DNA of 52,985 nucleotides from Parcubacteria group bacterium (GTDB lineage Bacteria > Patescibacteriota > Patescibacteriia > UBA9934 > GWF2-40-263): positions 1 to 52,985 of the forward strand of contig JABMNZ010000009.1 in the NCBI GenBank assembly GCA_013204395.1, given 5' to 3'. Within the stretch, counting starts at the first letter, position 1, and each line of letters opens with the position of its first letter. Made by a program: the position numbers and the translations under genes. Of this stretch, positions 1-43,404 are shown one piece after another. Under the pieces are notes generated by a model, which made no database searches, was not told where the DNA came from, and saw nothing but the letters and a program-made list of their open reading frames with translations.

Positions 1-1356
1 CATTTCATCTCCACCAAACACTTTAGCTCGTGCTTCTCTGGCAGCCCTGGTAAGAGGAGCCCTCTTCGCTCCGGCAGCAGCCAGTCCGGCCGCACCAACA
101 GCACCCTTAGCAAGAAGCGGGGCTGCAATTCCGACACCCTTTACTCCAAGACCACCTGCTGCCACACCACCTGACAAGACTTTTCTCCCAACTCCACCAC
201 CAATTCCCAATGTACCTATGGCGGCTGCACCACGTGTTGCCACATTTTTAAATGGTTGTTGCATCTTGCCGATCATCTTTCCAGACTTTCCTTCTGAACA
301 GACCTGGGATGCCGCGTCAAAACTTGCAAACACCAAAATAACTCCAATCAAGAAACTCATGAAGTTTTTTAACTGCAACCCGTCTGAAATAAAATCCGCA
401 CTATTACTCTCTGATGTGACATCAAAACCGGACTTCACTGCTATATCACCTGCCCCGGCCACGGCGAGAGTGAGCCAAAGAAAAAAAGTGAGTACGGGAC
501 CTATCGCAACCAAACATTTAAACTCGCCCCACCACTTTGCATACAAACCCGTCTTTACGATATCTTCCGCCCCCTTAGCGAACCAGGCCATTGGGGCAAG
601 AATAACCAATACCCATAAGCCAACAATTCTAAAGAGTAAAACACAGACAAGAAACAACAACACAACCAGCACCACCATCACCATAATGACGGATAAAACT
701 CCCGCCGCTAGAAAATCAAAAGCCGATCCTGCCCCACCACCACCTGTTGTAGATCCATCCATTGCGGAAGAGTCGCTTGAGATGCTGTGAAGTTGATTTA
801 GCCCAAAGAGTTGAATAATATTTCCTGCGGCAATTTCCCTAAGAGCATTGGCAAACGTAAGCATGACCACCTGACCAAAATCGATCATGATTCCACAAAG
901 GGTTTTTGAAAAGTTAATGACAATTGCAATAACCATCAAACGAGGTACCTGCTGTTGCCACTTGAATCTCTCGTTTCCAAAGATTGTTCCAAAGGCAATA
1001 ATAATGAGCACGACAACAAAAAACATGTTCACGGTATCGCGAACAATCGCCCAGCCTGCAGAGACAACCGCATTGTTCGTAAACGAGTTATAGGTCATTA
1101 CAGGAACCATCACATCAATAATCAGCACAATGGCTGTTGTGAAAATGGCGGCTATCTGAAACGCAAAGTCTGCCGCTGATTGTATGATCGAATCCATTTC
1201 TATAATCGCTGCGTGTGCCGGCATGGCTGTGACAAGAGCAAGGAATGTAAAAACCAAAACACCACCCGCACGGTAAAACCGGTGTGTTGCAACGTCACGT
1301 GCGCGCGCCTTTAGAGCGTCACGCAGCACGCGTAAACGGAGAAAAAGTCGCATCAT
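1..1356 (-). CDS. Polytopic membrane protein with N-terminal signal, TrbL/VirB6 (type IV secretion)-like; 3' end cut by window edge
   Basis: Manual minus-strand translation from ATG at 1356 is open to base 1: MMRLFLRLRVLRDALKARARDVATHRFYRAGGVLVFTFLALVTAMPAHAAIIEMDSII...; several TM stretches and a Gly/Ala-rich C-terminal part. Not in the ORF track, probably because there is no in-window stop. Confidence 0.75.
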   Translation of the reverse strand, partial: MMRLFLRLRVLRDALKARARDVATHRFYRAGGVLVFTFLALVTAMPAHAAIIEMDSIIQSAADFAFQIAAIFTTAIVLIIDVMVPVMTYNSFTNNAVVSAGWAIVRDTVNMFFVVVLIIIAFGTIFGNERFKWQQQVPRLMVIAIVINFSKTLCGIMIDFGQVVMLTFANALREIAAGNIIQLFGLNQLHSISSDSSAMDGSTTGGGGAGSAFDFLAAGVLSVIMVMVVLVVLLFLVCVLLFRIVGLWVLVILAPMAWFAKGAEDIVKTGLYAKWWGEFKCLVAIGPVLTFFLWLTLAVAGAGDIAVKSGFDVTSESNSADFISDGLQLKNFMSFLIGVILVFASFDAASQVCSEGKSGKMIGKMQQPFKNVATRGAAAIGTLGIGGGVGRKVLSGGVAAGGLGVKGVGIAAPLLAKGAVGAAGLAAAGAKRAPLTRAAREARAKVFGGDEM

Positions 1357-1418
1357 AACTGCTAAAATTATAGCACAGCACACATAACTTCGCGCAGAAA
1401 AATGGGGATAATAAAATA

Positions 1419-1579: not shown

Positions 1580-3529
1580 TCACAGCTGGCTGTTAGACGT
1601 GAATCCGTTGCCAGCACTCTCAAGGCCCGTTGTCGGGTCCCAACTCACTGAAATCAGCCATTCTTCCCAGCTGGTTCCATTGTCCTGCAGGTCGCACAGA
1701 TTCGACCCACCTGAGCAGAAGCCAGCGCCCTGCCACCAGTACCAGTTGCTCATGGTGCTGGTTGGCGCTCCCCCATCGGTTCCCATACTGGAAATCAATG
1801 AGAGGTCCGAGACACAATCTCCCCAGAAACCTGAGAAGTCGATCTGGTAGTACCCATCGCTGGTGTACATCAGATCCGACAGCGAAAGGACGCCGTCAAA
1901 GCAAGCGCCGTACGAGTAAACGAACGCCGGCATGCCATTGAGCGCCGTGGTGAGCCACAGGTCATCGGCCATGGCGAGTGTTTCGGCAACCCCATCCCCA
2001 TCAACATCTAGGATACAGGCATCCTGTTCACACGTCGTGCCAACCGTGGACTCCTCTTCCTCATCGTCGATGGGATCGTCGTCGACTGGATCTTCCTCAT
2101 CGGGAACATCCTCTTCTTCTTCGTCGTCGACCGGATCGTCTTGCACGTCCGTGGTGTCGTCGTCATCGCCGTCGTTTGGACCGCCAGCGTTGCCAGAACC
2201 AAGATCCAATCCGCCACCACAGGTGGTGACAGCATCCTGATCGATGCAACCTACATCAGCCGAGCAGCTACCAAGCGTGTGGAGCTGACGCACCAGACCA
2301 TCGTCAACCGTCATGACCGTCCGCTGGGCAAAACCCATCATCAGGTACACGTCCCAACTGAAGATCGGGAGCGCATCATCGCCAGAAATCGCGTAGACGT
2401 CTGAGCTAGAAGCTTCGGTGACCAGCGTGCCGCTGCGCAGGCCGGCGTATCCATCCACAACGGACCCGCTAAGGCTGCTGCGGGTAGGTGGTGGGTTACT
2501 GTATGTGTAACCCAGCCCCCAGGAGGCCAGCACTTCTTGCCAACCAATCTCCTGTACGCGCTGTCGGTACTGATCAGAATCGCCGTCATGACCCACGACC
2601 AGCCAGCGCTGACCGCTCTGATCTTCCGCCGCATCGATGCGTGTTTCGCCATCGAAAGCCGCCGTCTGACCGTAGCAGTCAAGCTCCTCGTCGGAAACGA
2701 GTGTCAGCTGATCAAAGTCGTAATTGAACGACCAGAACACGCTTTCGTCTTGAATCCAGCGGGTTTGCCCATCCTCAAGCGCGTAAACGCGAGCATTACC
2801 AGGCGTCTTGACCAGCGTCCCATTGGGATGCCACATGGGCACCGGGAGCGCCGACTCATAGAAGTGCCCCTGTACAGGGTCCCCTTCTGACACGAGTCCA
2901 CAGATAAAGTCCGTGGAAGAAATCGTCTGGGGAGTCCCGTAGGTGGTCGCGTCTGCGGCCAAATAGCTCACTTCGATCGACGCTCCTTGCGCAGCGTCCT
3001 GTGCGGCGCTTCCCTCGTGGAGCCCCACATGAACGTGATCACCAGAGCAATTCCCCGTGCAACCTTCGTAGCCGATCAGCTGACCCACAGAGATTTCCTG
3101 GCCACTGACAATGAAGATGTCGCTGAAATGCCCAATCACCGCGTACTTGCCTCCCCCTACGTCGATGTTGACGTGGTAGCCAAAGCCGCTGGTGGCTGAG
3201 TTCATGTGGACGTACGCGACCCCACCAATGGGGGCGTAAATCTCTTCGTTGACGCTGTTGCTCGTATCCAGATCGATGTCGAACTTGGTGGAGTCAGAGC
3301 TGTGAGAGAAGGTGCCGTGAGCCCCTTGCGTACACTGCTTTTCCACTCCCGTAGGAAATGGAAGTTGCAGAACGATTCCGTCACCACCCTGGTTGGATGT
3401 GCTGCCGTCGCCGTCGGGCGATGAAGGGAACATTTCGTCGGGCGTGCAGCCCGTCAGGATCACCATCAGGGTGACCACGATGAACATCAGGACCAAATAG
3501 ACTCTGCTCGCAGTTTGGTTGAAGGACAT
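1580..3529 (-). CDS. Secreted lipoprotein with M23/LytM-like peptidase domain and long Asp/Glu-rich linker
   Basis: Lipobox-like LTGC; M23-like segment KFDIDLDTS...GYHVNIDVGGGKYAVIGHFSDIFIVSGQEISVGQLIGYEG...GDHVHVGLHEG; DDDDTTDVQDDPVDDEEEEDVPDEEDPVDDD linker; RBS AAAGGAGG upstream of ATG. Confidence 0.8.
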   Translation of the reverse strand: MSFNQTASRVYLVLMFIVVTLMVILTGCTPDEMFPSSPDGDGSTSNQGGDGIVLQLPFPTGVEKQCTQGAHGTFSHSSDSTKFDIDLDTSNSVNEEIYAPIGGVAYVHMNSATSGFGYHVNIDVGGGKYAVIGHFSDIFIVSGQEISVGQLIGYEGCTGNCSGDHVHVGLHEGSAAQDAAQGASIEVSYLAADATTYGTPQTISSTDFICGLVSEGDPVQGHFYESALPVPMWHPNGTLVKTPGNARVYALEDGQTRWIQDESVFWSFNYDFDQLTLVSDEELDCYGQTAAFDGETRIDAAEDQSGQRWLVVGHDGDSDQYRQRVQEIGWQEVLASWGLGYTYSNPPPTRSSLSGSVVDGYAGLRSGTLVTEASSSDVYAISGDDALPIFSWDVYLMMGFAQRTVMTVDDGLVRQLHTLGSCSADVGCIDQDAVTTCGGGLDLGSGNAGGPNDGDDDDTTDVQDDPVDDEEEEDVPDEEDPVDDDPIDDEEEESTVGTTCEQDACILDVDGDGVAETLAMADDLWLTTALNGMPAFVYSYGACFDGVLSLSDLMYTSDGYYQIDFSGFWGDCVSDLSLISSMGTDGGAPTSTMSNWYWWQGAGFCSGGSNLCDLQDNGTSWEEWLISVSWDPTTGLESAGNGFTSNSQL

Positions 3530-6156: not shown

Positions 6157-8022
6157 CTACTTGATCCCAGAGCACTGTTTGAAACGGACATTGCAGTTGA
6201 TCTTCACCGAACCGCCTTCCGTAACCGTAACCGTTCCCTCTTGAGGGGTGTCTCGGCCCTCCATGGTTGCGAGCGCTGAGTAGGTACCGGGAGGCACCGC
6301 AACGGACTGACCAGGCCTTGAGAGTGTGTAGGTTCCACCTGGGCCTGTGAGTCTCACCGTGGCGATGGTCCCACCTGGCAAACCGAGTGTGACATTCACC
6401 TTGGCAGATACCACTTCGGCCACAAGGACCTCGGGCTCCACCTGAACGACAGCTGGTGTTGGATGTTCCATCACGCCTGTGGGCTCTGGAACCCGAGTAG
6501 GTTCTTTCACCACTACTGGCAATGGAGTTGTCACAGGCTCGGGAGTTGATTCCACTGGTTCGGACGTAGCCTCTACCACAGGTTCCACAATCGACGGCTC
6601 GACAGCGACCTCGGAAGTAGGAAACTCTTCCTCACCTACTGAAACTGGTTCAGCACTGATGATCACCCACATGAAGAAGAGCCCAACGCTCGCCAAGACA
6701 ATGACTAGGGCCCCAAAGCCCATGAGCGCCTTCTTTTTCTCCGCTTGGATGCTTGCAACACGGGCCGCGTGCTGTTCGTCGCTTTCGAAGACCCCTTCAT
6801 GCAGCGTCCCCATGGGGAAACCGCCTTCTGCCCTCGTGTGTCCCACTCCACCATCTGTGTCCCACGGGAGATTGGTCTCCCCTGCAGGTTGAACAGGTGG
6901 CGGCTGAGTGAATCCTGGCACGGAGCTCACATGAGACATGAGCCCACCGTGTGCTGGCAAAGCTCCTGGCATCGCTCGAGTGGGCCCAGGCCCATCCTCG
7001 ACCAGCGGTGCGATTGTTCCTCTCACTTGCATCTCGCCGACCCCAGAGCCAACCATGGCACCTGGCAGAACCTCGATGGACGAAGTGTCCTGAAAGCTCC
7101 TTCGTCGGAGCTCCTTTGGAGCGGATCCCAGAACTGGCAGACCTTCTGGATCCTCCGGAAGACCATCCATCTGCTGGCGAAGTTCTTCCATCATCTCCAT
7201 CGCACTCTGGTAGCGCGATTCCGGATCCTTGGCCGTAGCCAGAAGGAGCACACACTGCAGCAGATCGTCGATCCCCTCGAGGATCGCACCATCTTCAGCG
7301 TGCTGGAAGTAGAAGTCGTTCCCCGAACGGGGATACTCTCCCTTGAGAAGGCACCAGAGCATCACACCGACGGCATGAAGGTCCGCACGGTGATCTGCGC
7401 TAGAAGCGTCTGTTTTCTGCTCGGGAGACATGAACGCAAGCGTTCCCATCGCCGTCCCGGCACGAGTCAGGTTGACCGTTCCCTGCTCAAGCTTGGCAAT
7501 GCCGTAGTCGGCCACTTTGACCACACCATGGACATCGATGAGAACGTTCTCGGGCTTGATGTCACGGTGGTAGACCGGTGAAGGCTCTCCCGTTTCCGGA
7601 TCCACGAACGAATGTCCGTAGTGAAGAGCACTGAGCACATCGATGATCACTCGGGCGGTCTGTCGAGGGCTCAATGGCCCAAACACCTCCATGTGATCCT
7701 TGAGAGTACCACCAGGGCAGTACTCCATCATGATGTACGGCGTCGTGCCGACTTGATCGACGTCATGAACAGTCAGAACATGCGGACTGGAGAGCATCGC
7801 CATGATGCGCGCCTCCCGCGTGAACCGATCTCGCATGACTTGCGACCGAAGGTACGGACCGTGAACGAGCTTCATGGCTCGCAAGGTCTTGAGTCCCGTG
7901 TGCTGTACCAGCACGACGAATCCCGCTCCACCCGCTCCCAGAACCTTCTTGACCCGGTAACGCTTGAGCGGATCGATGATGAGCTGCAATTCTGCAATCG
8001 CAGCTCTTTCCTCAGCGTCCAT
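6157..8022 (-). CDS. Ser/Thr protein kinase (PknB-like), single TM, C-terminal PEGA-like domain
   Basis: YRVKKVLGAGGAGFVVLVQ, YHRDIKPENVLID, VKVADYGIAKL, GTLAFMSPEQ; TM ALMGFGALVIVLASVGLFFMWVII. Start MDAEERAAIAEL at 8022 with GGAGG RBS preferred over 8157. Confidence 0.88.
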   Translation of the reverse strand: MDAEERAAIAELQLIIDPLKRYRVKKVLGAGGAGFVVLVQHTGLKTLRAMKLVHGPYLRSQVMRDRFTREARIMAMLSSPHVLTVHDVDQVGTTPYIMMEYCPGGTLKDHMEVFGPLSPRQTARVIIDVLSALHYGHSFVDPETGEPSPVYHRDIKPENVLIDVHGVVKVADYGIAKLEQGTVNLTRAGTAMGTLAFMSPEQKTDASSADHRADLHAVGVMLWCLLKGEYPRSGNDFYFQHAEDGAILEGIDDLLQCVLLLATAKDPESRYQSAMEMMEELRQQMDGLPEDPEGLPVLGSAPKELRRRSFQDTSSIEVLPGAMVGSGVGEMQVRGTIAPLVEDGPGPTRAMPGALPAHGGLMSHVSSVPGFTQPPPVQPAGETNLPWDTDGGVGHTRAEGGFPMGTLHEGVFESDEQHAARVASIQAEKKKALMGFGALVIVLASVGLFFMWVIISAEPVSVGEEEFPTSEVAVEPSIVEPVVEATSEPVESTPEPVTTPLPVVVKEPTRVPEPTGVMEHPTPAVVQVEPEVLVAEVVSAKVNVTLGLPGGTIATVRLTGPGGTYTLSRPGQSVAVPPGTYSALATMEGRDTPQEGTVTVTEGGSVKINCNVRFKQCSGIK

Positions 8023-8953
8023 GCGAAACCTCCGTCTGTGGGGTTGGTGGAGAAAGAATGACGGTAGGCTTACCCTGACCGTCCTTGCCGAAACGCGCGT
8101 GCATCCCGATTCCAAAGCCAGTGAACACCACAGCGGCGCCTCCAGCGATAGCCGCACCCGTCCCGAACCCGTTGGCGTTACTCTCGTAACGAGCGAGATC
8201 CGTGTCTGGTGTGAGGGGGTCTTGGTACTGAGCTTTTTGGCTCATCGCGATTCCGTAGAACACGCCCGCAGTGAGCGTCGCTACGCCGGCAGCAAGGAAC
8301 CACGGACGTGGGTCCTTCAACACCACAGCGCGAGACACGCCGAGATCTTCGGCTGTCAAACCCATGGGGTTGTCGCTCCACTTGGGGAGGGCTTGTCCCG
8401 GCTGGATGTAACGCGTCTCCATGAGCAAATCCCCAGGTCCGTAGACCTGGACAATGGCAGGGGTGTCGCTGTAGCGCGGCGCATTGCGCACACCAGAGAC
8501 CATCACGTAACCACCGATGGGTGGGTACACTGGCTCAGCATCCCCATCGGGAGCACTGGCGGCGGACTCGTAGAGCGCGAGCAGTGGATTGCCCGAGTCA
8601 ACGATCGTTTCAGGGAAATTGTATCCCGGATCCAAACGAAGACTCGAGTGAAACTCTGCAATCGCTCGTTCGTCGTTGCCGTTGATGAACGCTTCCATGG
8701 CCATCAGGCGATGGAAAGCCGCTGCCTGTTGGCGAGTGAGCTTCTCACTCACACACGGAAGGATGTCCATTCGCACCTTGCTCGCCTGAGTGAGCAGGGT
8801 GTCTGTGTCCAGCCTTCCGAAGGCTTCGACTCCGATGTCGATCGCCTGCTCGAGCTGCAGGGTCGTGGTGTTCTCTTGGCAGGCCGCGTGGCCCATCTGT
8901 GGGACCATCAGGCTCAGCGCGATAATCGCGCACCAAAGAATCGGCTTCATCAC
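8012..8953 (-). CDS. Secreted TPR-like protein of unknown function, operonic with the kinase
   Basis: Signal peptide MMKPILWCAIIALSLMVPQMGHA; GGAGG RBS; 3' end overlaps the kinase start by 11 nt; one TM-like segment (AAIAGGAAVVFTGFGIGM). Confidence 0.7.
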   Translation of the reverse strand: MMKPILWCAIIALSLMVPQMGHAACQENTTTLQLEQAIDIGVEAFGRLDTDTLLTQASKVRMDILPCVSEKLTRQQAAAFHRLMAMEAFINGNDERAIAEFHSSLRLDPGYNFPETIVDSGNPLLALYESAASAPDGDAEPVYPPIGGYVMVSGVRNAPRYSDTPAIVQVYGPGDLLMETRYIQPGQALPKWSDNPMGLTAEDLGVSRAVVLKDPRPWFLAAGVATLTAGVFYGIAMSQKAQYQDPLTPDTDLARYESNANGFGTGAAIAGGAAVVFTGFGIGMHARFGKDGQGKPTVILSPPTPQTEVSHGR

Positions 8954-9178
8954 GTCCTCCGCGTTTCTCTTTTACTTCTCAGGAGTATAACCCCTGAAAA
9001 AAGGGCATGGGTATCGTCCGAACATATCCGAACGAGGCAGTTTTTTAGCATTAATCTGCCACAAGGTCAATATAACACTATGGAGAAAGATGTGCAGAAA
9101 AGGATCATTTTTATCCACATTCCGTCTCTGTAAAAGAGCTTTTTTTAAGTAAAAAGGATCAATTCTGTCTGACTGCCA

Positions 9179-9207
9179 TTGACAAAAACCAAATAAATGC
9201 GTCTAAT
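9179..9207 (+). promoter_or_regulatory. Candidate sigma70-type promoter for 9284..9985
   Basis: TTGACA (9179-9184), 17-nt spacer, TCTAAT. Confidence 0.4.
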
Positions 9208-9283
9208 ATAGGCAGTAGCTCTTTCTGAGATCAACCCTCCCGCACTTCACTGAGGTGGAGACGGGGCAAAAAAGGAGTCAGGG

Positions 9284-9985
9284 ATGACCCGCTTCAAGAC
9301 CGCTATCCTGAGCCTGTGCCTCCTCCCCCTGCTGATGCTGTGGGGATGTGACGAACTCCCGGGCAACTGCCCGGACGGTGATTGCACCGGAGTCTGCGAC
9401 GGTGGCACCTGTGCCGACGACGACGATACCGGAGCAGACGACGACGACACCGGCGGCTTCGAGACGGTGACGCTGCACATCCAGTCCCCCACCGTGGCGA
9501 CCCGCCCCGACTACATGGAGGGCGCGCCCGAGGACCTGGACTGGCGCGGCGAGTTCCGAGTCGAAGGTCAGCTGACCCACGAGAACGCGTCCGAGTGCGT
9601 CTATGAGGTCGACGAGCCGGTCACCGACCTGCGTGTCACTCTCGACGGAGAAGGCTTCCGCTGCGCCCCCAACTTCGCAACGGTGAGCTCTGAGGACAAC
9701 GGCGCAGAGCTGGACGTCCTCTGGGACAGCCCGTACACCTGCGCCACCGACCCCGACGGCGAGTACGGCACGTACGACGTGTACACAACCCTCAACGACG
9801 ACGGTCAGGTCGAGATCCGGATTGGCATCTACATGCCCGCCCCAATCGTGGGCAACGAGTTCTACGCTGAAGATGGTGACCAGCTCATGGAAGGAACGGT
9901 CTCGTGGGACCTCTCCGAGATCTACTTCCGCACCATCACTCCGGCCGGCAACGAGACGGAACGCACGGTCTACCGAAACGACTAG
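9284..9985 (+). CDS. Small lipoprotein with Asp-rich linker
   Basis: Lipobox MLWGC; CTGVCDGGTCADDDDTGADDDDTGG; RBS AAAGGAG; GC-rich codons. Confidence 0.75.
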   Translation: MTRFKTAILSLCLLPLLMLWGCDELPGNCPDGDCTGVCDGGTCADDDDTGADDDDTGGFETVTLHIQSPTVATRPDYMEGAPEDLDWRGEFRVEGQLTHENASECVYEVDEPVTDLRVTLDGEGFRCAPNFATVSSEDNGAELDVLWDSPYTCATDPDGEYGTYDVYTTLNDDGQVEIRIGIYMPAPIVGNEFYAEDGDQLMEGTVSWDLSEIYFRTITPAGNETERTVYRND

Positions 9986-10083: not shown

Positions 10084-13000
10084 CTACTCGGGGATCACAG
10101 AAATCGTGCCACCCCAATTTATCCACGGATTTGCAACACCTCCTAAGAAATATTCTGTTTCGCAATCTTCGGATCCTCCACCAGGACAGTCTTCAATATT
10201 ACACTCATCAATCCCTGCACCAGCACTATCCAACCCCGTGAAACACTCCTCACCTGTATCAGCACTCTCACTATCACAGAACCCAGTACACCAACCCCAG
10301 TTGTCCATGACGTGAATGCGTGGTTGGAATACACAAGCCTCACTCGCGACACATGGGGAGTTTACCAAACGTCCATCGTCTTCAAAATTACAGTTTCTTC
10401 CGGCGGCGGTTAGATCTGATACTTGCCCTGGAGTACACGTGTAATCATGCGTATAAGTCAGGTAACTTGATGAACAGGCTCTTGGACTATCTCCAAACTC
10501 ACCCTCAGAACCGTCCGTACAGATATCCTGTTTGGTCACTGGATTTACCCCACGATGATTCTTATAGAAGTTATCTGTAGCATTAGAACCACTTTGTGAC
10601 CCTGTTGACCAGGGCTGATCTCCTGTAAGAGCCGTAAAGTCATCACCCCAGTCCACCACAATTCTTCTAATCGGCATGTGATCGGTATCGGCATAGGCAA
10701 AGAAACTTGCAGATGCTCTGTAACTTGCTTCGGCCTCAATACTCCCGCTGGTGGACTCATCTATCGTGAAGGAATCCTCAGCTCCCTCCTGACAATCAGA
10801 TCCATTACACGAACCTACAGCTGCAATGTGCGGAACATCACCATCGTTATCGTATCTATTATTCCAAAACCAATCACCTTGCCCCTGTGAAGTTACATCA
10901 GGTAAATCGTAAGGAGTCCAGTTTTCCCTAGGGTCGTTGTTAAACTTTGTAATCATTTGACTAATGGTCCAATCAGCCAATCCGGCATAACCATCATTGT
11001 CAAACACCACCATACCGTAGAGTTTTCCAAATATCTGTGATAGCCGGTCGATAACTGCTGCCTCGTCAGAACCTCCATTTAGTGCCCATCCTGGAGGTGT
11101 GTCACTATCCAACATACAAGTTGCGCTCACGAAATAACCTGTTTCAAAGTCTGCTACACCAAAACAAGTATTAGATTCACAATCATCATTAGAATCACAA
11201 GTCGTAGAAGAGTTACCGTCTGGTCCAACTCCACCTTTCCCATTATAAAGACCACCGTCACACACCGCACCTGCACAATAATCTCCAGGTGAAGAACTGC
11301 AATCAATTTCATTATAAGAAGGAGTGCCATCTTCTAAGAAAACATTGTTATCAAGAGAACAAGGCAAGAAACTAGGAGAACTGGCACCGTCGTCACTGAC
11401 AGTACATAAACCCGCATGAGTAGGTCCTCCACACTCGATAAGCCTGTTATTATCCCATGAGCACCAATCATAATTTCTATTTGTACCATCCAAACAACTA
11501 CAATCATTTTCCTTGCAATAATCTACACCACCAAATACGGGGAAGCCTATTGAAGTGTCTTGATAAGCACGTGCATCATCACCAGTACTTGATGTGATTG
11601 AACCAGATGAACAACTAACGGTAGGATCTGCCGGAGCAGGATCTTTGGACAAACCTTCTGAACACATGACAACCCTATTTGGAAATGGATCAGGTAAATC
11701 CTCCATTATCTGATAATCCGTAGCTTTCCCAAATTGCGCTTGCCCCGTTGAGTTTGAATACCCAAAGAAATTAGTGTCGTCACCTCCAATTGTGTACCTG
11801 TCTTCGCCTGTCTGCCAAAGTCTGTCTGTAAACGCCGCATTATAAGTATCGAACGGAAGACTATCATCTCCCCCGAGCGTTTTTGTGGAAACCTGAACCA
11901 GGGATGTACAAACAGCTTCTGGATTGAAACTGTACGTCAAATTTCTGAAACCCTCACCACTGAATATACTTCCAGATTCAATATAGCCCGGTAGATCCTC
12001 AATGGAATTTTCGGGTGAAAAGAATTGATCTAGGTGACCACCATTTGATGTTGTTGGCAAAACACCTCTTGCAAGACAATCATTATAATAGTCATATGCC
12101 TCGCTAAATAGGTCTTTTTTCATGACATAAAACCGTGCCTCTGTCTCATGATTTTGATTATACTGATGCCAGTAACCCGTAGAATTTGCCCAATGATCAT
12201 ATACATCCTCAACGGCATAGTAAAAATTACTTGAATCATCTGTCAAACTCCAATCCCAGTTGCTCCAACCTGGTACCTGAGTCGGTGGCAGACATTTGGC
12301 ACCCACATCTTCACTTACATCTGTTTTATAAGACAGCTTCGGAACACAGACATATGGACAATCCCAATCCCCACCAGAACACATTGTTCCATCATCAGGA
12401 GCTTGCTCTCCACAACCAGTCATTACACCAAAGTACCCATCGGGACACCACGCACCCGCAATACAATCATCTTGCCCTCCCGAATTCAGATTACTCGCCT
12501 CTTCTTTAAAATCCTCCCAAGATCCGTCATTACACAAATTATCCTGTACCTCAGCACATGCTATCTGTGTTGTTCCGACGTTATATGCCATGTCAATTTC
12601 CGCGCAGTAATAGGTGTCCTGTGGGGAATATCCTGCGCTGGTGAACTTAGCATATAGATCTGTTGCTCCTGCTAGCTGGTCAATTGGAAGCCATGATAGA
12701 CATGCTTGGTCTTCATTATTTGGTGACCCCTTAGTTTGAATGGAGGTATCGCGTTCAATACAATATCCACTCCATCCGTACATAGTAGATATTTGTGAAA
12801 GAGGTTCACACTTAACTTCCGTGTCTCCCGCCACAAAGCAATCAGCATCATCAAGACAGGCAATACCTGTAAATGCCCCCGCGGCACAAATACCTTCTGG
12901 GATCACTCCATCCTCATCTGAAGGAAACTCACTTCCTAAAGGAAAATACTTAATGCCAGCCGAACCCTGGTTTCCGAATTCCACCTTATCGTAAGAACAC

Positions 13001-16000
13001 TCACAGTCGACTGGATTTCCATCGTTATCCAAAGAACACACCAGCGCATCTTGGAATCCATTTAAGAATGAATATGGGGAAGACGACTGGCTTAAGTTAT
13101 TGACGGCATCATCTTCTGTAAACGAAGAGTACTCAGGGGAAACACCATCGTCACCAATTTTTTCAACATTTGTATATATTTTCCACGAACTAACGACATC
13201 TACTGGGAACGGAGAATCAAATTCTGGATAGCCTCTGCAGGCTTCACTACGTGCATCACCCAAATACAGTGGATCTGCCAAACCATTACCATCACTGTCA
13301 GTAATGTCCGTTAAGCACTGATTATTGAAACAGCTACCCACAACAGATGTTGAAGCTGGAACACAGACCTGCTGTGATCCACAAGCCTCTTCTCCATCCC
13401 CGTCAATATCATCAGTGTCGACACAGGCATCACGATTAGCCTCATCACTTGTAAGCACATCTACACAAACGTACTGTCGCGGATCACAAATTGGCGTAGA
13501 AACACTCCCAGCCGTAGCCCCCACACAGTCTGTATGAACATTGCCAGTATAACTATCAGGATTGCAGGAACAATCTGCGTTCGCAGGACACGTATCTGCT
13601 TGAGCCTGACAGTACCCGACTACACATTCTTCTGGATCTCCATTAGGACGTGTTCCACAATCATCGTTATCAGCACATGAAGTGCTACCACCGTCGCAAG
13701 ATCCAACGCGACAGGACCCACCGTTTCCAACACCCCCTCTATCCACAATTCCATCAAGATCATCATCTATAGGCTCAGATGAATCGCACTCTCCTGCTTT
13801 ATATACAAGACGGTAATCGGTTTCTGTTGAGTTTTCACAGGCATAAAAACATTTACCTGACCCACCCGTTGCTGCTTCATCACAACCACCATATCCAGCG
13901 GCCGTACACGCACTATCAACCGTACATGTAGGAGATGTTAAATCAATTTCACAGTCAGTGAACGAGTCGCAGGCCTCTGGAAGATAGTTATCATTCTCAC
14001 GTGGTTCTCCATCCGTATCTACGCAGTAAGCGGCGGCCTGTACATTAAACTGATTATAAGATTCAATTGGCAACTGGTTTGGGATGGTGTTTCCGGAGTA
14101 TTCGAAACCGCTCCAGGTTACGTCACGGGAAGCGTAATCTTCTGTGGTGAGAATCTCAACGTCGCGTGGCTCCCAATTTGTACAGATGGTTTCTTCTCCT
14201 TGGAGTTTTCCTTCAATACACAAATCGATAGAGTCACAAATCCTGTCATAGGTATTTGTGGAAGAGTTCCAACTGGTTTTTGAGCTGTCGCAAGCAAGCC
14301 AAGCACTACAAGACCTGTCTCTATTCACCTTCAAAATTTCATTGGTGTCGTTACCGAGCTTGTATTGTGTCGTAGTGGAGTAATTAGAGGCACCGAGCAG
14401 GATAGGGGGTATAACATCAAATGTGTCGGGCACTTCCCACACGTTGGTACAAACTCCAGAAACCTCTTCACCCTCATATGTTGTAAGAACGGGGCAATCT
14501 GTATTACCCAAACAAGATCGTTCCAAATAAACATCGTTTGGGTTAGATATCAGCGGATCTCCATCAATAAACAACTCCGATGTTGAAGTCTCAATGTAAT
14601 CACTCGAATCAACCTCATACCCACATCGGCGCATACATAGGTCCACCGTATCCTCTAGTCCTGTTCCAAGCCCGGCCTCCAATCCGTAGAACTCGGCATC
14701 TGACTCAGAGATCTCAAAGACTCCTGCTCCCTCGACTTCACAGGTGATCGGATCCACAAGATCATTTTCTTTTCCACCAAAGAAGATATCTGCATGAACA
14801 GACGTGACGTAACTGGCGCCGGCGTTATAAGAGAGATCTGAATTTGTTGTGTTGTAGAAAAGTGCACAAGCCTGCTTTTGGCTTACACGTCCTTCACAGC
14901 GCTGAGACTCGCGCACTGCTTCATCTGCAAGGAGCTCATTATTTGTAAAGTAATAACTTTGTCCATAAGAATAAGCCGCACTTGTGTCGACAACATCAAT
15001 AAACTCGGTACAAAGATTATATTGAGCGTCACACTGGGCTACCCAACCATCATATCCAGGGTCTCCATTACGCCATGCCTTAAAGGTATCTCCATCCTCA
15101 ATAATGGAGGAGTCTTCACCGATATCAAACTCACCATCGGCATTCTCATCGGTCCAATAACAAGGTTCTGTTGTTCCAGATCGGAACCAACCTAAGTACG
15201 ACTGATTCCCAAGTGGAACACCATTTTTATATTCACAGAACTTAGCCAGAGGGTGCTTGAAGTAGAAGTTACCACTCTCTTCAGAGGCCCACTCTTCACA
15301 GAATAGGGCTTGTTGATCACAGAGAATCTCATCGTAACTTGCCGGTAAATCTATGTAATACTTGCTTTCAAACTCTGTCACTTCTGTTTGTGTTTGGTTA
15401 TACGTAGGCTCTCCAAACTCGGTACAACCCATTCCAACAGGTTCACACGCAACCCCATCGTTCACAATCATGTACACGGGGCTATCAGCGCGAACAAACC
15501 GTGTTTCAGGTCCGTAGACGATACCAAAGTTTCCTTCTATAGGCAGTGGTGTTTCAAATGTTTTTTCCGCGGTGAACGTACAGTAAGAGGTGCCAACAAT
15601 AATCGTACAGAGTGTTTGTCCACCAACTTCACAATCTGTGTTTGTCAGGGCTACTTCTCCGTCTGTTAAATCATTTGGCGTGTCTGTTGTATACACACAG
15701 CGAGCGTTGAAAACCTCGGCAGACTCACTTGCTGAATTATGTGTGTTAAAGAATCCTTCACAACCAACAACTTCTTCACTACAAATATTTGTGAATTGAT
15801 ATAGGTCTGCATCATTCCCATTGTGATCTGTGTAGGCTTCACAACCAAGGTAGTACTGATCTGAATCTGCACCCGCTGGTGTTTGATCACAAACAGAAGG
15901 AACTACCCAGGAATCTTTAATGAGTGTGACATTTTCCTCTGCCTGCTTGAGAGTAATGTTATCGATGTAGAAAAGATCGGGACCTGCGTCCATGTAGAAC

Positions 16001-19000
16001 CGCAAAATGGCGTTTTCATCAAAATCATCAAAAGCACTGGTATCCAATGGTCCAATACTATAAAGACTCCATCTACCAGAAAGTTCTATCGTGTCATCAA
16101 TCAAAGGATCTGAAAGAGGATCAACCATGTTGTGAACTAGTCCACCACCCCCCTCTTCAACAAATTCGACGGAAAGTTCTCCATCTCCCTTTGCCCAGAA
16201 ATCTAGAACAAACGTTTTTCCAGCAACTATTGTGTCAGTTAGCGTTCCACAACTTTCTTGTCCATCAGCAATTGTACAGCTCATATCAGCTACGAGGTCT
16301 GCGTCAACAAGCGTCTCCACCTCACAACCAGCATCCGTCACAGTTCCTCCAACAGAGGTGCAAGTTGCGGTTGCATCTTCATCGTACGTAGCCGTTGTAT
16401 CTGTGGCGTTTAGATAAATCTGTACTGTCTCAAATCCCGGGCTGGTTCCAGTGGTATTTGTGACAGAAAGCGAATGTCCATCTGTGGCAACAGACTCGTT
16501 TGAGATAGCAAGATCTTCATTTTTTAGCGGGCCAATGAACACGTAGTCCTCATACGTACCCCCCTCAAAGTTCTCGTCCAAAATAGTGGTGGCATTGCGT
16601 CCTGATCCACCCGTGTACTCTCTACAACCACTCTGACTCTCAGAACACGACGTTGATTCACTTGAAAGGACGTAATAACGACAGAATCCTTGATTTGCCC
16701 AGAACCCACCTGAAGCCTGACAATCTGTTTGGTTGGAATTGTCCATTCTGTATGGAGTACACGCATCATCCACAGAAACAGTCATTGAGTGCAGACGATA
16801 GTGAGGTTCTCCAGCGGGGTCAAAGTACTCACGACAGTCAGGGTTATCAAAAATATCATCATGCTCATCACACTCATCATTCCACCAGACGTCGTTTATC
16901 ATTTCTGTACCAGAACCTAAGTTGTCATCACAAACAATAACATTCTCAGAAGTCATTAAGACATGAGTACAAGGTGCATTTTCTGCGTCTACCTCTGTAA
17001 AACCAGAATAGTTGAACGTTGATGAGTATGTGCTGGAATCATAATTAGATGAAAGTAAGTACCACGTCATCAGCTGATAACCAGCATTATCTGATCCCTC
17101 CCATGTATAAAATGTGGCTGGAGTGTTATTTCTCGCTGTCCCGTCGGCAATGGCCTCAGTCAAACAAGATCTTGTATCTGTGAAATACTCCGTCCCCTCT
17201 CCCCCTTCTCCAGCCGCAGCAAGAGATGTGAATGCATCACATCCAACATTCTGTTCACTACAAGTAGAGGCACTTGTAGCAATGAAGTAAAGCGGGAAAC
17301 TTTCTGATTCACGATCTGTTGCCTCTTGCTTGTAAGTTGTATATCCAACACAGGACGAAGGACATTCATCTAGTGAGGAAATGATGGCTGGAACGGAAGG
17401 ATCTCCATCCTCTGGAGAGTAAAGGCTACAACCAACTTCTTGGGCAGTACATGCCTGAGCATAATCCCCACAAGCGACTGGATCCGACGCCCTACCCGTA
17501 CATCCCAAGTACTCAGGTGCCACTTTGTAATAAGCGAGCTGGGAGTTGAGGCTATATCCTTGTGTGAATCCATTTGCATCTTCCCCCAGCTCAAGCTGGA
17601 AGGCATCCAGATAAATATTTGGTGAATACACAACTACCTGAAGTAGATCTGTGTCAGCTGGTGTAGTGAATGTACATTCAAAACGAGCCCACTTCCCCGT
17701 AGGAAACTGTACTGGGTCAGATGGATCCAAGGTAACTACATACTTGCTATTTCCTAAATCTTGCGCACAATCTCCCGCATAGGAAGTACCAGAAATGTCC
17801 ACTGCCACACCATCCTCATCGTAAAGAAACACCGACACTAACGTATCTGCAGCAGTTGCATTATCAACCTTTGCGTAAAAACTGAACGTATAGAAATTAT
17901 TCCCCGTTACGTTAACAAATTGCTGAAGAAAACTGCCATTCGTTAAAAATGAGTTGCTTCCATAATTTGACTGGACGGTTGTTATCGCTTGTGTGGAAGA
18001 GCTCCCTGAAAGATTGTTCCAATCGTCTGGGAATCCATCCGAATCTTCATCGTCTTCAAAACTTGAATTCATTATTGAGTTGAGGACAAGGTTGTCTGTA
18101 AATTCATACAACTGTGTACATCCCCCATTATCCTCATCACACTCTACCGCATCGTGTGTAAGATAAATTCGATCTTCGTAAGCAAAATTGCTGTAAGTAT
18201 TTGTCAGGGACGTGCCAGAAGAATAGGAATACGTAGCACGAGCAGCTGCGTCTGTTGTGGTAGCGTCTAGGTAAGCCCAATCGTCATCCCGGTCAGCAAC
18301 AATGTAATTATCCCCTGTTGGCAACCAAACATACTCATCGTCTGATTCATCATTTTGTGTACCCGCATCATCAAAATACTTCTGTGTTCGATACCACCTA
18401 CACCCAGCATTATCCTGACCACACACACTAAAGTCTACGGTGTTTACAAGAAAATCTACCCCTTCACCCGTATTGGTATTTTCAAAACTTAAACATGAGG
18501 CAAACTGCTCTGGACATTCATCACCCCTAAAACGCCAAGTGTTCTTTTCTTCTACACAGTAACCGTATCCATCTGAACAATTTCCGTCATTATCTTCCCC
18601 AATACAACTTGGAGCATCTGCACAATAGGTCAGTCGTCCATTCGTCTGAGGGCTAAGGCGGATTTCACCATTGACCAGAGCACGACACTGGGCATCTGGA
18701 TATTTCAACACCCAGTTTGGATCAATAAGGTGACACCACTGTGTACTGGTACCCGTTGGTCCAATGTCTCCACTTTGTGAACAAGTATCAAATCCATCGA
18801 TAATATCCTGAAGTGTGGCGGCCCCATTGGCATTTCTAAAAGCTGCCAGCTCCCATCCAATTGGAATCACACGAGCCTTTCGAAGCTTTACGAGGTTTCC
18901 ATAACAAAACCCGTAGTTGAAACAATTTAGATCCTGGTTTGTTGCAAACTCGTCTGGTCCAATCAATTTCCAATCACCACTGATAAACCCCTCATCAATT

Positions 19001-20295
19001 GCCTCTTGGACGGTCAAAGGTGACCCTGAATTTCCTCGCACGACTGCGGCAAGGAAATTTGAATCCATGACACAATTATAAAGTCCCCTATTACTCACCC
19101 CCTGCGGTGGACACACCACAAACTCAGAAAGCGCATTGAATTCTGTTGTTTGAATTGGATTGGTAGCCAATATATCCGCAAATCTAGCTTGTGCTGACTC
19201 CCTACCAGTCCCAGATAGCCCCTCCAAGTTAAACGGATCGAACTCATCATCATTATCATCAAACAATCCTGTGTAGATCTTGTTCATGAGCTGAGAAAGA
19301 AGCGTATTGGCAAATGTCGATGCGGTAGTAAGTGCCAAACCTCCAATCAACTCCTCGGCATTGACCAGCTCACCAACATTAATTTGTGATTGATCTCCAT
19401 CAACATCCTCGAGGCTGTTTTCAAAATCTTTCTGAAGCGTATCCGATGGCGTCTTTACATTTCCAGAAACGAAATCAGTAACATTTTTATAATCAGATTC
19501 ATTCCTCTGCATGAACTGTAGCAACTTCTGCTCCTTTACTTCCTGATCCACGGCAATGTTCATGCGCAGTGTGGCGCCAAGCTCATTTTTTCCAGGCTTA
19601 AGGGATTCAGCAAATTTTCCTAAAATGGCCGCCTGCCTTGCCTCTGGATCTGTAATGGTTGTAATTGCGCCTCCAATAAACCCTTCCCAATTTGCTCCAA
19701 CCTCTAGGATGTCACACTTAGGTTCTTCTGGCTGGTACTTTTGTTTGATCCCAATGGACATAGCAAGACCAACCAATGGATCGCCTGCTGCTGGATCACA
19801 CAGGTTAAATTTCAAACCCAATTCGTCAGACCCAAGCTCAGAAAGTTGACCAACAGCTTCACCGGCAATCTCAAGACCCAAATTAGCAAAAGCATCTGCT
19901 GGTTCCGTCTTATAGAACATGGAATCTTGTCCACTACCACCTGAAGCAATGGCTACAGCAGCCTCATAAGCAATGCGGTTCAAAACAAACTGAGCAAGGT
20001 TCAAAAGGGCCGTAATAAGAGCGATACGGAAAACAGGTGATAGAATTTTCTCACCAACCGTTTTCAAGGCATTTTTTGCTCCTGTTGCCGGACATACATC
20101 TGTTCCAGGAGATACTCCAACACAAGCTCCTTCAGCAGCCCCAACACCAACTTCAGCAGTCGCAGTAACGAGCTCGGTATCCGCTAATACCTCGTTTGAA
20201 ATACCAAAAAGGCCAATAGAGACAAGGCCCATGACAAACACTGCCATGAGCATGACGGAAATACCTCGTTTGGTTTTATAAGTGCTGTTAATCAT
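10084..20295 (-). CDS. Giant (3403 aa) secreted Cys-rich multidomain surface protein
   Basis: Single uninterrupted ORF; N-terminal signal/TM; conserved-looking segment LLNLAQFVLNRIAYEAAVAIASGGSGQ; two jelly-roll/CBM-like segments; C-terminal PKD-like segment; many Cys pairs. Confidence 0.85.
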   Translation of the reverse strand: MINSTYKTKRGISVMLMAVFVMGLVSIGLFGISNEVLADTELVTATAEVGVGAAEGACVGVSPGTDVCPATGAKNALKTVGEKILSPVFRIALITALLNLAQFVLNRIAYEAAVAIASGGSGQDSMFYKTEPADAFANLGLEIAGEAVGQLSELGSDELGLKFNLCDPAAGDPLVGLAMSIGIKQKYQPEEPKCDILEVGANWEGFIGGAITTITDPEARQAAILGKFAESLKPGKNELGATLRMNIAVDQEVKEQKLLQFMQRNESDYKNVTDFVSGNVKTPSDTLQKDFENSLEDVDGDQSQINVGELVNAEELIGGLALTTASTFANTLLSQLMNKIYTGLFDDNDDEFDPFNLEGLSGTGRESAQARFADILATNPIQTTEFNALSEFVVCPPQGVSNRGLYNCVMDSNFLAAVVRGNSGSPLTVQEAIDEGFISGDWKLIGPDEFATNQDLNCFNYGFCYGNLVKLRKARVIPIGWELAAFRNANGAATLQDIIDGFDTCSQSGDIGPTGTSTQWCHLIDPNWVLKYPDAQCRALVNGEIRLSPQTNGRLTYCADAPSCIGEDNDGNCSDGYGYCVEEKNTWRFRGDECPEQFASCLSFENTNTGEGVDFLVNTVDFSVCGQDNAGCRWYRTQKYFDDAGTQNDESDDEYVWLPTGDNYIVADRDDDWAYLDATTTDAAARATYSYSSGTSLTNTYSNFAYEDRIYLTHDAVECDEDNGGCTQLYEFTDNLVLNSIMNSSFEDDEDSDGFPDDWNNLSGSSSTQAITTVQSNYGSNSFLTNGSFLQQFVNVTGNNFYTFSFYAKVDNATAADTLVSVFLYDEDGVAVDISGTSYAGDCAQDLGNSKYVVTLDPSDPVQFPTGKWARFECTFTTPADTDLLQVVVYSPNIYLDAFQLELGEDANGFTQGYSLNSQLAYYKVAPEYLGCTGRASDPVACGDYAQACTAQEVGCSLYSPEDGDPSVPAIISSLDECPSSCVGYTTYKQEATDRESESFPLYFIATSASTCSEQNVGCDAFTSLAAAGEGGEGTEYFTDTRSCLTEAIADGTARNNTPATFYTWEGSDNAGYQLMTWYLLSSNYDSSTYSSTFNYSGFTEVDAENAPCTHVLMTSENVIVCDDNLGSGTEMINDVWWNDECDEHDDIFDNPDCREYFDPAGEPHYRLHSMTVSVDDACTPYRMDNSNQTDCQASGGFWANQGFCRYYVLSSESTSCSESQSGCREYTGGSGRNATTILDENFEGGTYEDYVFIGPLKNEDLAISNESVATDGHSLSVTNTTGTSPGFETVQIYLNATDTTATYDEDATATCTSVGGTVTDAGCEVETLVDADLVADMSCTIADGQESCGTLTDTIVAGKTFVLDFWAKGDGELSVEFVEEGGGGLVHNMVDPLSDPLIDDTIELSGRWSLYSIGPLDTSAFDDFDENAILRFYMDAGPDLFYIDNITLKQAEENVTLIKDSWVVPSVCDQTPAGADSDQYYLGCEAYTDHNGNDADLYQFTNICSEEVVGCEGFFNTHNSASESAEVFNARCVYTTDTPNDLTDGEVALTNTDCEVGGQTLCTIIVGTSYCTFTAEKTFETPLPIEGNFGIVYGPETRFVRADSPVYMIVNDGVACEPVGMGCTEFGEPTYNQTQTEVTEFESKYYIDLPASYDEILCDQQALFCEEWASEESGNFYFKHPLAKFCEYKNGVPLGNQSYLGWFRSGTTEPCYWTDENADGEFDIGEDSSIIEDGDTFKAWRNGDPGYDGWVAQCDAQYNLCTEFIDVVDTSAAYSYGQSYYFTNNELLADEAVRESQRCEGRVSQKQACALFYNTTNSDLSYNAGASYVTSVHADIFFGGKENDLVDPITCEVEGAGVFEISESDAEFYGLEAGLGTGLEDTVDLCMRRCGYEVDSSDYIETSTSELFIDGDPLISNPNDVYLERSCLGNTDCPVLTTYEGEEVSGVCTNVWEVPDTFDVIPPILLGASNYSTTTQYKLGNDTNEILKVNRDRSCSAWLACDSSKTSWNSSTNTYDRICDSIDLCIEGKLQGEETICTNWEPRDVEILTTEDYASRDVTWSGFEYSGNTIPNQLPIESYNQFNVQAAAYCVDTDGEPRENDNYLPEACDSFTDCEIDLTSPTCTVDSACTAAGYGGCDEAATGGSGKCFYACENSTETDYRLVYKAGECDSSEPIDDDLDGIVDRGGVGNGGSCRVGSCDGGSTSCADNDDCGTRPNGDPEECVVGYCQAQADTCPANADCSCNPDSYTGNVHTDCVGATAGSVSTPICDPRQYVCVDVLTSDEANRDACVDTDDIDGDGEEACGSQQVCVPASTSVVGSCFNNQCLTDITDSDGNGLADPLYLGDARSEACRGYPEFDSPFPVDVVSSWKIYTNVEKIGDDGVSPEYSSFTEDDAVNNLSQSSSPYSFLNGFQDALVCSLDNDGNPVDCECSYDKVEFGNQGSAGIKYFPLGSEFPSDEDGVIPEGICAAGAFTGIACLDDADCFVAGDTEVKCEPLSQISTMYGWSGYCIERDTSIQTKGSPNNEDQACLSWLPIDQLAGATDLYAKFTSAGYSPQDTYYCAEIDMAYNVGTTQIACAEVQDNLCNDGSWEDFKEEASNLNSGGQDDCIAGAWCPDGYFGVMTGCGEQAPDDGTMCSGGDWDCPYVCVPKLSYKTDVSEDVGAKCLPPTQVPGWSNWDWSLTDDSSNFYYAVEDVYDHWANSTGYWHQYNQNHETEARFYVMKKDLFSEAYDYYNDCLARGVLPTTSNGGHLDQFFSPENSIEDLPGYIESGSIFSGEGFRNLTYSFNPEAVCTSLVQVSTKTLGGDDSLPFDTYNAAFTDRLWQTGEDRYTIGGDDTNFFGYSNSTGQAQFGKATDYQIMEDLPDPFPNRVVMCSEGLSKDPAPADPTVSCSSGSITSSTGDDARAYQDTSIGFPVFGGVDYCKENDCSCLDGTNRNYDWCSWDNNRLIECGGPTHAGLCTVSDDGASSPSFLPCSLDNNVFLEDGTPSYNEIDCSSSPGDYCAGAVCDGGLYNGKGGVGPDGNSSTTCDSNDDCESNTCFGVADFETGYFVSATCMLDSDTPPGWALNGGSDEAAVIDRLSQIFGKLYGMVVFDNDGYAGLADWTISQMITKFNNDPRENWTPYDLPDVTSQGQGDWFWNNRYDNDGDVPHIAAVGSCNGSDCQEGAEDSFTIDESTSGSIEAEASYRASASFFAYADTDHMPIRRIVVDWGDDFTALTGDQPWSTGSQSGSNATDNFYKNHRGVNPVTKQDICTDGSEGEFGDSPRACSSSYLTYTHDYTCTPGQVSDLTAAGRNCNFEDDGRLVNSPCVASEACVFQPRIHVMDNWGWCTGFCDSESADTGEECFTGLDSAGAGIDECNIEDCPGGGSEDCETEYFLGGVANPWINWGGTISVIPE

Positions 20296-20297
20296 GT

Positions 20298-21026
20298 TTA
20301 TTGTGTTACCTCAATCTCTGCAGAGGTCGTGTCCAAAGGAACTTGATCAATTAACTCCTCAAACGCCCCTGAGTCATTTGCATCATCTACAACCGTATAG
20401 AAAAACTCTTGCAATGTTTCATCATCAATTTCACTCAACTCCACCTCTGACATACCTGAATCAACAAGAGCGGAACGAATTTGTTCTATCGTCGCTTGCT
20501 TAAAAAAGTTTTCAACATCTGCTTGACTATCAAATTTTACAGCTCCTGCGGCAAGAATACTATCTTCACCAAGCCCACCAATGAGTCCTGCGGCAACGCC
20601 AGTTTGACCATCCACGTTCTCTGACGCCCCACTGGTAGTAAAGCAATCTGTTCCCGTTGGACAGTTTGGGTTGTTTCCAGAGAAGACCTCTGACTTATCA
20701 TCAAACCCGTCTGAATCTGAATCTGATAGATAGGGCGACGTCTTATACACATACAACTCATCGTAGTCCACTAGTCCATCGCCATCTGTATCCTTTGATT
20801 TGGATTCTTCTAATTCGCGTGCCTCACGATCCGAGCTCGTCAAAAATTCTTGCCCGGTATACATCTCGGCAATTTGTTTTTGGATGGGTCGATCTAGGTT
20901 TGCGCCGAATGAAAAAAATCCTAGAACCACTCCTCCAAACCCAAGAAACATCAAAATCGCAAAAGCAACCTTCTGCTCCGCGCTAAGCGTCGCTGGTGGA
21001 CGATGTTTCACTCTTTGTGTGGGCAT
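20298..21026 (-). CDS. Membrane-anchored protein with thrombospondin type 3-like Ca-binding repeats
   Basis: TM VAFAILMFLGFGGVVLGFFSF; DTDGDGLVDYDELYVYKTSPYLSDSDSDGFDDKSE; 2-nt gap to the giant gene ATG (TAA-ac-ATG). ATG at 21026 preferred over upstream TTG at 21038. Confidence 0.75.
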   Translation of the reverse strand: MPTQRVKHRPPATLSAEQKVAFAILMFLGFGGVVLGFFSFGANLDRPIQKQIAEMYTGQEFLTSSDREARELEESKSKDTDGDGLVDYDELYVYKTSPYLSDSDSDGFDDKSEVFSGNNPNCPTGTDCFTTSGASENVDGQTGVAAGLIGGLGEDSILAAGAVKFDSQADVENFFKQATIEQIRSALVDSGMSEVELSEIDDETLQEFFYTVVDDANDSGAFEELIDQVPLDTTSAEIEVTQ

Positions 21027-21048
21027 AATCGTTCCCAAATATTATAGC

Positions 21049-43206: not shown

Positions 43207-43404
43207 AGATGAACCTAGTTTAGGGAAAAACCTGTCGTTTTGCAACTGGAAATGGCTGGGGTAAGATGTGGGTGTGGGGGTTGACGTACCCCCGTTTTTA
43301 TTGAAAGATACTCTTCTAGTTCTTTTCAAAGTGGCCTCAGACTTCAGATTACTTCCATGATTTGAATTCTGCGGCCACAACACTCTTATTGGAGGGACAA
43401 AACC

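Follow-up and report, generated by a model that had tools for sequence, protein, structure and literature searches.

TraN, the mating-pair stabilization protein of F-like conjugation systems, is an adhesin-like protein with 20 conserved cysteines, and its function depends on its cysteines (PMC7555446). The type IV secretion system (T4SS) of Patescibacteria shares ancestry with the MPF-FATA T4SS class of Gram-positive conjugation, according to a survey that reports neither a PrgB homolog nor a PrgB-like adhesin there (PMC12102498). In the one species that has been tested genetically this T4SS is essential, although what it does is unknown (PMC10633639, PMC11665869). Little is known about how Patescibacteria attach to host cells and exploit them. 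Surface proteins of Absconditicoccaceae and Apilactobacillus (Giant1 to Giant5), which are exported and thousands of residues long, are thought to mediate cell contact (PMC13059738, PMC12863079). Here we describe the gene of a cysteine-rich giant protein of 3403 residues, referred to below as the giant, in contig JABMNZ010000009.1 (our contig C6) of the Parcubacteria group bacterium assembly GCA_013204395.1, a genome of 1.1 Mb in 31 contigs; the whole stretch analyzed, 52,985 nucleotides, is called the window. The gene belongs to a T4SS locus, and its product carries ten C-x6-C modules. We put at about 0.6 the probability that the modules form structural repeats within the ectodomain of a Sec-exported, membrane-anchored giant that works with the chromosomal T4SS of its class.

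Known here from its sequence, the giant resembles TraN in being a putatively exported, adhesin-like and T4SS-associated protein that is rich in conserved cysteines; TraN, in contrast, is an outer-membrane protein of diderms and has about 600 residues. The giant did not match Pfam TraN at an E value of 0.1, and we know of no C-x6-C series in TraN. With the PrgB-type adhesins of MPF-FATA systems it shares the character of a large surface protein that is encoded with the T4SS of a monoderm and is expected to make cell contact. Its comparison with known adhesin families, PrgB included, gave no match in Pfam or NCBIfam (CBM_4_9 was the sole hit), and the wall-anchor signal and the adhesin domains of PrgB were not found in the giant. 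By analogy, it likely works like TraN and PrgB while being a member of neither family. The giants of Absconditicoccaceae and Apilactobacillus are described as having fibronectin, calcium-stabilized and other adhesion domains, and neither a T4SS link nor a cysteine module is reported for them in the available text. In the literature searched, outside of which most subscription papers and preprints lie, no description of the giant was found, and the available text of the Patescibacteria T4SS survey does not mention it (PMC12102498).

The original prediction, made from the DNA of the window, had described at least nine copies of a C-x6-C-x2-aromatic motif with constant spacing. The repeat is real, and all nine quoted peptides indeed occur in the 3403-residue open reading frame (ORF). 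The spacing of the aromatic residue is less constant than claimed, being +3 in nine of the ten modules and +4 in CDEDNGGCTQLY. Since a further exact copy, CPEQFASCLSF (18484-18516), had been overlooked, the total is ten modules, which span residues 594 to 1762 of the giant, and the predicted span of 15290-18430 has to be widened to 15001-18516 (Table 1). A protein with 4.5% cysteine is expected to hold some C-x6-C pairs, so the motif could be a chance by-product of composition, but this explanation is refuted by the counts: C-x6-C-x2-[FYW] occurs 9 times in the giant, compared to a mean of 0.72 and a maximum of 6 in composition-preserving shuffles (0 of 5,000 reached 9), and x6 is the sole enriched spacing, with 9 matches, whereas no other spacing in the range of 1 to 24 gave more than 2. 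Nor does chance fit the 20 motif cysteines, all of which are kept in 60 of 60 class-wide homologs at about 30% identity (26 to 34%), a count of cysteine presence that an alignment anchored on cysteines can inflate. At the DNA level the pattern was counted 19 times versus 7.9 ± 2.8 in dinucleotide shuffles, with 0 of 100 as high.

Free of the anchoring bias is the constancy of the spacing at the ten sites: at each of them it was exactly six residues in 89 to 94 of the 92 to 94 sequences. No other part of the giant is as conserved as the two-cysteine repeat motif, which was present in every class homolog that was read across the region; a lack of the motif in homologs, named with the original prediction as a refuting result, was thus not observed. 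The consensus pooled over the modules is C-[SP]-[AE]-x-x-[VA]-G-C-x-x-[YF]. Profile-profile comparison of the module windows gave a mean probability of 48 for motif-motif pairs (41 pairs) versus 2.6 for control pairs (90 pairs). The stretches shared between module profiles were mostly in register and about 20 to 47 columns long, which puts the length of a module at about 20 to 40 residues. As judged from these profiles, the ten copies are true repeats, and the module is laid out as a hydrophobic stretch, the C-x6-C and a strand bearing the aromatic residue. A 38-residue module profile gave ten matches in the source genome, all within the giant gene, and in the nine further genomes of the class that appear in the hit list it matched no gene but the giant gene. 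A wider search with a profile of the copies had been proposed with the original prediction; outside the class it gave only three marginal single matches, all in short ORFs, which were taken as noise. Searches of the module region against Pfam, NCBIfam and PDB chains, which included the known disulfide repeats EGF, TSP1 and sushi, gave no match. In an AlphaFold model with a mean pLDDT of 68, copies 5 and 6 were fairly well modeled and showed a cysteine, one helical turn and a (Gly)Cys, followed in copy 5 by a strand. This Cys-turn-Cys form of the modeled copies would suit a local staple.

The motif had also been proposed to represent a new kind of disulfide-stapled repeat module, carried by a secreted protein. 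The true repeat, the lack of a library match, the signal/anchor and the oxidase genes are all in line with this proposal, and the two cysteines of each motif may be bonded to each other. Covariation is silent on the pairing within the motif, because the motif cysteines never vary. The prediction had been concerned with the motif alone, but the modules are part of a protein with some 150 mostly conserved cysteines, and most cysteine columns were 90 to 100% cysteine in 33 order-level homologs. Joint loss of both cysteines within the class, with a phi of 1.0, was seen for several pairs (166-194, 458-464, 932-942, 2353-2433 and 2420-2431), and co-loss of 395-408 and of 1192-1205 gave a phi of over 0.9. 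Reciprocal best pairs were adjacent in cysteine order in 19 of 33 cases, versus 0.5 expected, and in 5 of 15, versus 0.3 expected, when only aligned, ungapped positions were used; these statistics are inflated by relatedness and by whole-segment loss, and part of the signal is indeed loss of whole segments, since fewer pairs survive with ungapped positions. Read with this in mind, the co-loss supports putative local cysteine pairs outside the motif.

A search for oxidases, also suggested earlier, was successful: the source genome encodes two VKOR genes and three DsbA-like Thioredoxin_4 genes. VKOR was found in 36 of 40 relatives and, in a sample of the phylum, in 12 of 16 genomes of the class versus 71 of 176 others. 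Cysteine pairs with fixed spacing can bind metals, and the pairs in the modules might thus be metal-binding or redox-active sites instead of structural disulfides. We reject this reading as highly improbable, since the protein is an exported one, its genome encodes VKOR and DsbA-like oxidases, the x6 spacing with its Gly-Cys is neither the CXXC redox pattern nor that of a zinc ribbon, and the modules have no conserved histidine.

Export of the giant is supported by its predicted N-terminal signal/anchor, which has a hydropathy peak of 2.5 (residues 9 to 38) and, as read from the sequence, a signal-peptidase-like A/D junction. Between the modules lies an inserted domain that matched CBM_4_9 of Pfam with an E value of 1.2e-5 (26.2 bits, cut-off 25.9); Foldseek retrieved CBM16, CBM4 and CBM22 modules for the region, with E values down to 6.7e-8 and a TMt of 0.75 to 2zew. 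The fold is the same as in CBM_4_9 and CBM16 modules, but in the giant it is merely an inserted domain, and no enzyme domain was recognized. Beyond CBM_4_9, comparison of the giant with Pfam, NCBIfam, PDB sequences and folds gave nothing else of note. The C terminus has the pattern DWGD...YTHDY...DNWG, which looks PKD-like by eye and was matched by no Pfam model.

Giant homologs were found in 56 of 60 relatives. With a profile of residues 540 to 1240, the giant was detected in 258 of 287 genomes of the class (236 of the 256 of good quality), and the same profile found, in the phylum sample, 23 genomes of the same class and just two weak matches to the CBM region outside of it. According to these searches, the single-copy giant gene is near-universal in its class and essentially absent from other classes. 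In complete cases the open frames encode about 2,400 to 4,600 residues; an open frame of 26,141 residues (L164-L168, G135:C8) is an artifact of a 72-kb stretch of N. The class is probably ABY1, because one homolog sits on a Candidatus Uhrbacteria contig. A comF-like gene next to virB4 supports the assignment, since the survey describes this as typical of ABY1 T4SS loci (PMC12102498).

The VirB6/TrbL-like gene of the window is cut by the contig end. Bases 1 to 99 of the window, inside this gene, are identical to the start of contig C23, so the window and contig C23 can be joined within virB6. Contig C23 encodes PrgI (1e-7), a TrsD-like protein, VirB4 (1e-28), a 198-residue membrane protein and a ComF-like protein. 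The 198-residue protein after virB4 (L157:6659-7252) has a single transmembrane (TM) segment and a weak NTF2-like match (0.057). The NTF2-like fold is that of VirB8, and the protein is a candidate for the VirB8 of this T4SS. We infer a VirB1-like role for the M23 peptidase-domain protein encoded directly upstream of virB6, a candidate VirB1; in 8 relatives, too, a homolog of it is encoded close to the giant gene. Across the class, a VirB6-like gene lies downstream of the giant gene on the same strand in 35 of the 44 loci whose sequence continues for 2.5 kb or more beyond it. Among 8 extended loci there are 5 in which the giant gene is followed by a VirB6-X-PrgI-TrsD-VirB4 cassette and then by a 200-residue protein, a sixth being cut at the locus end; the cassette likewise follows the giant gene in genome G132, and VirB4 is on the contig of the giant gene in G132 and G037. 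A homolog of the calcium-motif partner encoded directly upstream of the giant gene was present in 20 of 20 loci of the order and in 57 of 60 loci of the class.

The N-terminal domain of the giant also occurs elsewhere. When T4SS loci from other classes of Patescibacteria were searched with a class-wide hidden Markov model (HMM) of the first 390 residues, it matched a stand-alone protein of 280 residues (L187, in genome G346) with 1.5e-9 (hhalign, 96.7%). Homology covers residues 72 to 295 or so of the giant, and the short form shares with it a C-x-P...P-x-C pair and a K-T-P element. A genome search seeded with this 280-residue protein gave five further weak matches, and their loci all contain virB6; PrgI, TrsD and VirB4 are present in four of the five, the contig of the fifth ending early. 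Two of the five were matched by the N-terminal profile of the giant, L195 (544 residues; HMM, 3e-20; hhalign, 98.0%) and L196 (886 residues; hhalign, 88.6%), and the remaining three were not confirmed by it. The HMM of the calcium-motif partner had matches in three of these loci (L197, L198 and L199). L187, L195 and L196 have the same domain as the giant and the same position upstream of virB6, but they are several-fold shorter, have few cysteines and lack the C-x6-C series; no name for them was found in the literature searched. Because the N-terminal domain and the calcium-motif partner recur in T4SS loci of other classes, the giant looks like a class-specific enlargement of a T4SS-locus protein.

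In the T4SS loci of other classes, large cysteine-rich proteins without detectable homology to the giant are encoded at L171:4927-8979 (1351 residues, 61 cysteines), L171:10688-14026 (1113, 47), L172:7495-11289 (1265, 61) and L175:6890-11176 (1429, 40). Exported proteins rich in cysteine may thus recur in the T4SS loci of Patescibacteria.

Since its gene sits with the T4SS genes, the giant may be the missing host-contact part of this T4SS, and the best explanation is that it represents the enlarged external T4SS component of the class, a surface rod that is braced by disulfides, bears a domain of the carbohydrate-binding type and probably serves host contact. The N-terminal signal would export the giant, and the N-terminal domain would hold it at the membrane beside VirB6 and the calcium-motif partner. 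VKOR and the DsbA-like oxidases could then oxidize its approximately 70 cysteine pairs outside the membrane, with each C-x6-C closing a short turn before a beta-strand. The modules would brace a rod that is long, rigid and resistant to proteases and into which beta-sandwich domains are inserted, one or more of them of the carbohydrate-binding type. Projecting from the epibiont, the rod might bind glycans of the host surface and keep both cells in contact, which would allow the T4SS to work. More tentatively, a whole class, probably ABY1, may have turned a small, phylum-wide T4SS-locus protein into an external arm of 3,000 residues and some 70 disulfides, built on a unique repeat, that replaces the pilus or adhesin of other T4SSs for gripping partner cells.

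Several observations weigh against this reading. Six genes (about 8.7 kb) separate the giant gene from virB6 in the window, an adjacent virB6 is missing in some loci of the class, and VirB4 was found in 18 of 20 class genomes without a detected giant. The CBM_4_9 match barely exceeds its cut-off, the CBM insert is apparently missing from some members of the class, no solved fold matched outside the CBM region (Foldseek of the second half came back empty) and a second AlphaFold model was weaker, with a mean confidence of 58. The giant is a candidate for a physical part of the T4SS on the grounds of gene order and homology. As for the genomes without a detected giant, in 10 of 10 that have VirB4 on the plus strand it lies less than 9 kb from the beginning of its contig, and the giant gene could therefore have been lost in a gap of the assembly.

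If the giant were a general cell-envelope protein, such as an S-layer-like coat or a wall scaffold, its proximity to the T4SS would result only from chromosomal stability near rsmA. Indeed, rsmA and other housekeeping genes flank the giant locus, rsmA is near the T4SS in other classes too, some genomes of the class have a T4SS without a detected giant, and high conservation would fit a structural protein. However, the N-terminal domain is encoded upstream of virB6 in other classes without the giant ectodomain, T4SS loci of several classes contain the calcium-motif partner, and a single large protein with a CBM and variable inserts is unlike the repetitive protein of an S-layer lattice, which makes this explanation unlikely. 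Even less probable is that the giant is a substrate of the T4SS, one that reaches the host cell or is set free there and is not a fixed part of the machine: its linkage to the T4SS cassette, its size and the carbohydrate-binding-type domain would be compatible with that, but it has a Sec-type signal and the cysteine chemistry of exported proteins, no catalytic domain was recognized, and it is more conserved and more universal than usual effectors.

The external T4SS component proposed here is a near-universal, class-specific and putatively exported candidate that is encoded with the T4SS and has relatives among the T4SS-locus proteins of other classes in the phylum. This candidate offers a target for imaging and genetics, a class marker and a new disulfide repeat, and it implies heavy oxidative folding outside the membrane in cells with genomes near 1 Mb.

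Table 1. Coordinates in the window of the giant gene, the segments of its product and the neighboring T4SS-locus genes
Feature	Residues	Position	Strand	Basis or remark
Giant secreted protein (putative), 3403 aa, 152 Cys, all ten modules		10084..20295	minus	ORF, homologs
N-terminal signal/anchor (predicted), KTKRG-hydrophobic-EVLA	1-39	20179..20295	minus	hydropathy, sequence reading
N-terminal conserved domain	60-450	18946..20118	minus	alignment
Module 1, CPEQFASCLSF	from 594	18484..18516	minus	not among the copies predicted originally
Module 2, CGQDNAGCRWY	from 625	18391..18423	minus	ORF sequence, homolog conservation
Module 3, CDEDNGGCTQLY, aromatic at +4	from 719	18106..18141	minus	ORF sequence, homolog conservation
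CBM_4_9-type carbohydrate-binding domain	739-892	17620..18081	minus	Pfam, Foldseek
Module 4, CTAQEVGCSLY	from 949	17419..17451	minus	ORF sequence, homolog conservation
Module 5, CSEQNVGCDAF	from 1012	17230..17262	minus	sequence, conservation, model
Module 6, CSESQSGCREY	from 1217	16615..16647	minus	sequence, conservation, model
Module 7, CSEEVVGCEGF	from 1505	15751..15783	minus	ORF sequence, homolog conservation
Module 8, CEPVGMGCTEF	from 1617	15415..15447	minus	ORF sequence, homolog conservation
Module 9, CDQQALFCEEW	from 1659	15289..15321	minus	ORF sequence, homolog conservation
Module 10, CDAQYNLCTEF	from 1755	15001..15033	minus	outside the span predicted originally
Partner, 246 aa, single TM, TSP3-like (DxDxDGxxD) calcium motifs		20298..21038	minus
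M23 peptidase-domain protein		1580..3529	minus	Pfam Peptidase_M23, 1.5e-12
VirB6/TrbL-like polytopic membrane protein, incomplete		1..1383	minus	same strand as giant

A stretch of the window with higher GC content (6157-9985; 54 to 58% versus about 45%) encodes a Ser/Thr kinase, a 313-residue exported protein and an Asp-rich lipoprotein-like protein. Contamination was considered as its origin and rejected, since homologs of its genes occupy the same place in relatives. PADLOC gave no defense-system match. A plus-strand ORF of 774 residues (43405-45729; local GC content, 56%) overlaps the start of a valyl-tRNA-synthetase-like ORF on the opposite strand (40573-43818) by about 400 bases, and one of the two starts may be wrong. 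A second protein-kinase-like gene (27451-28818; Pfam Pkinase, 7.5e-12) lies near groEL, beside an O-antigen-ligase-like gene (28811-30076).

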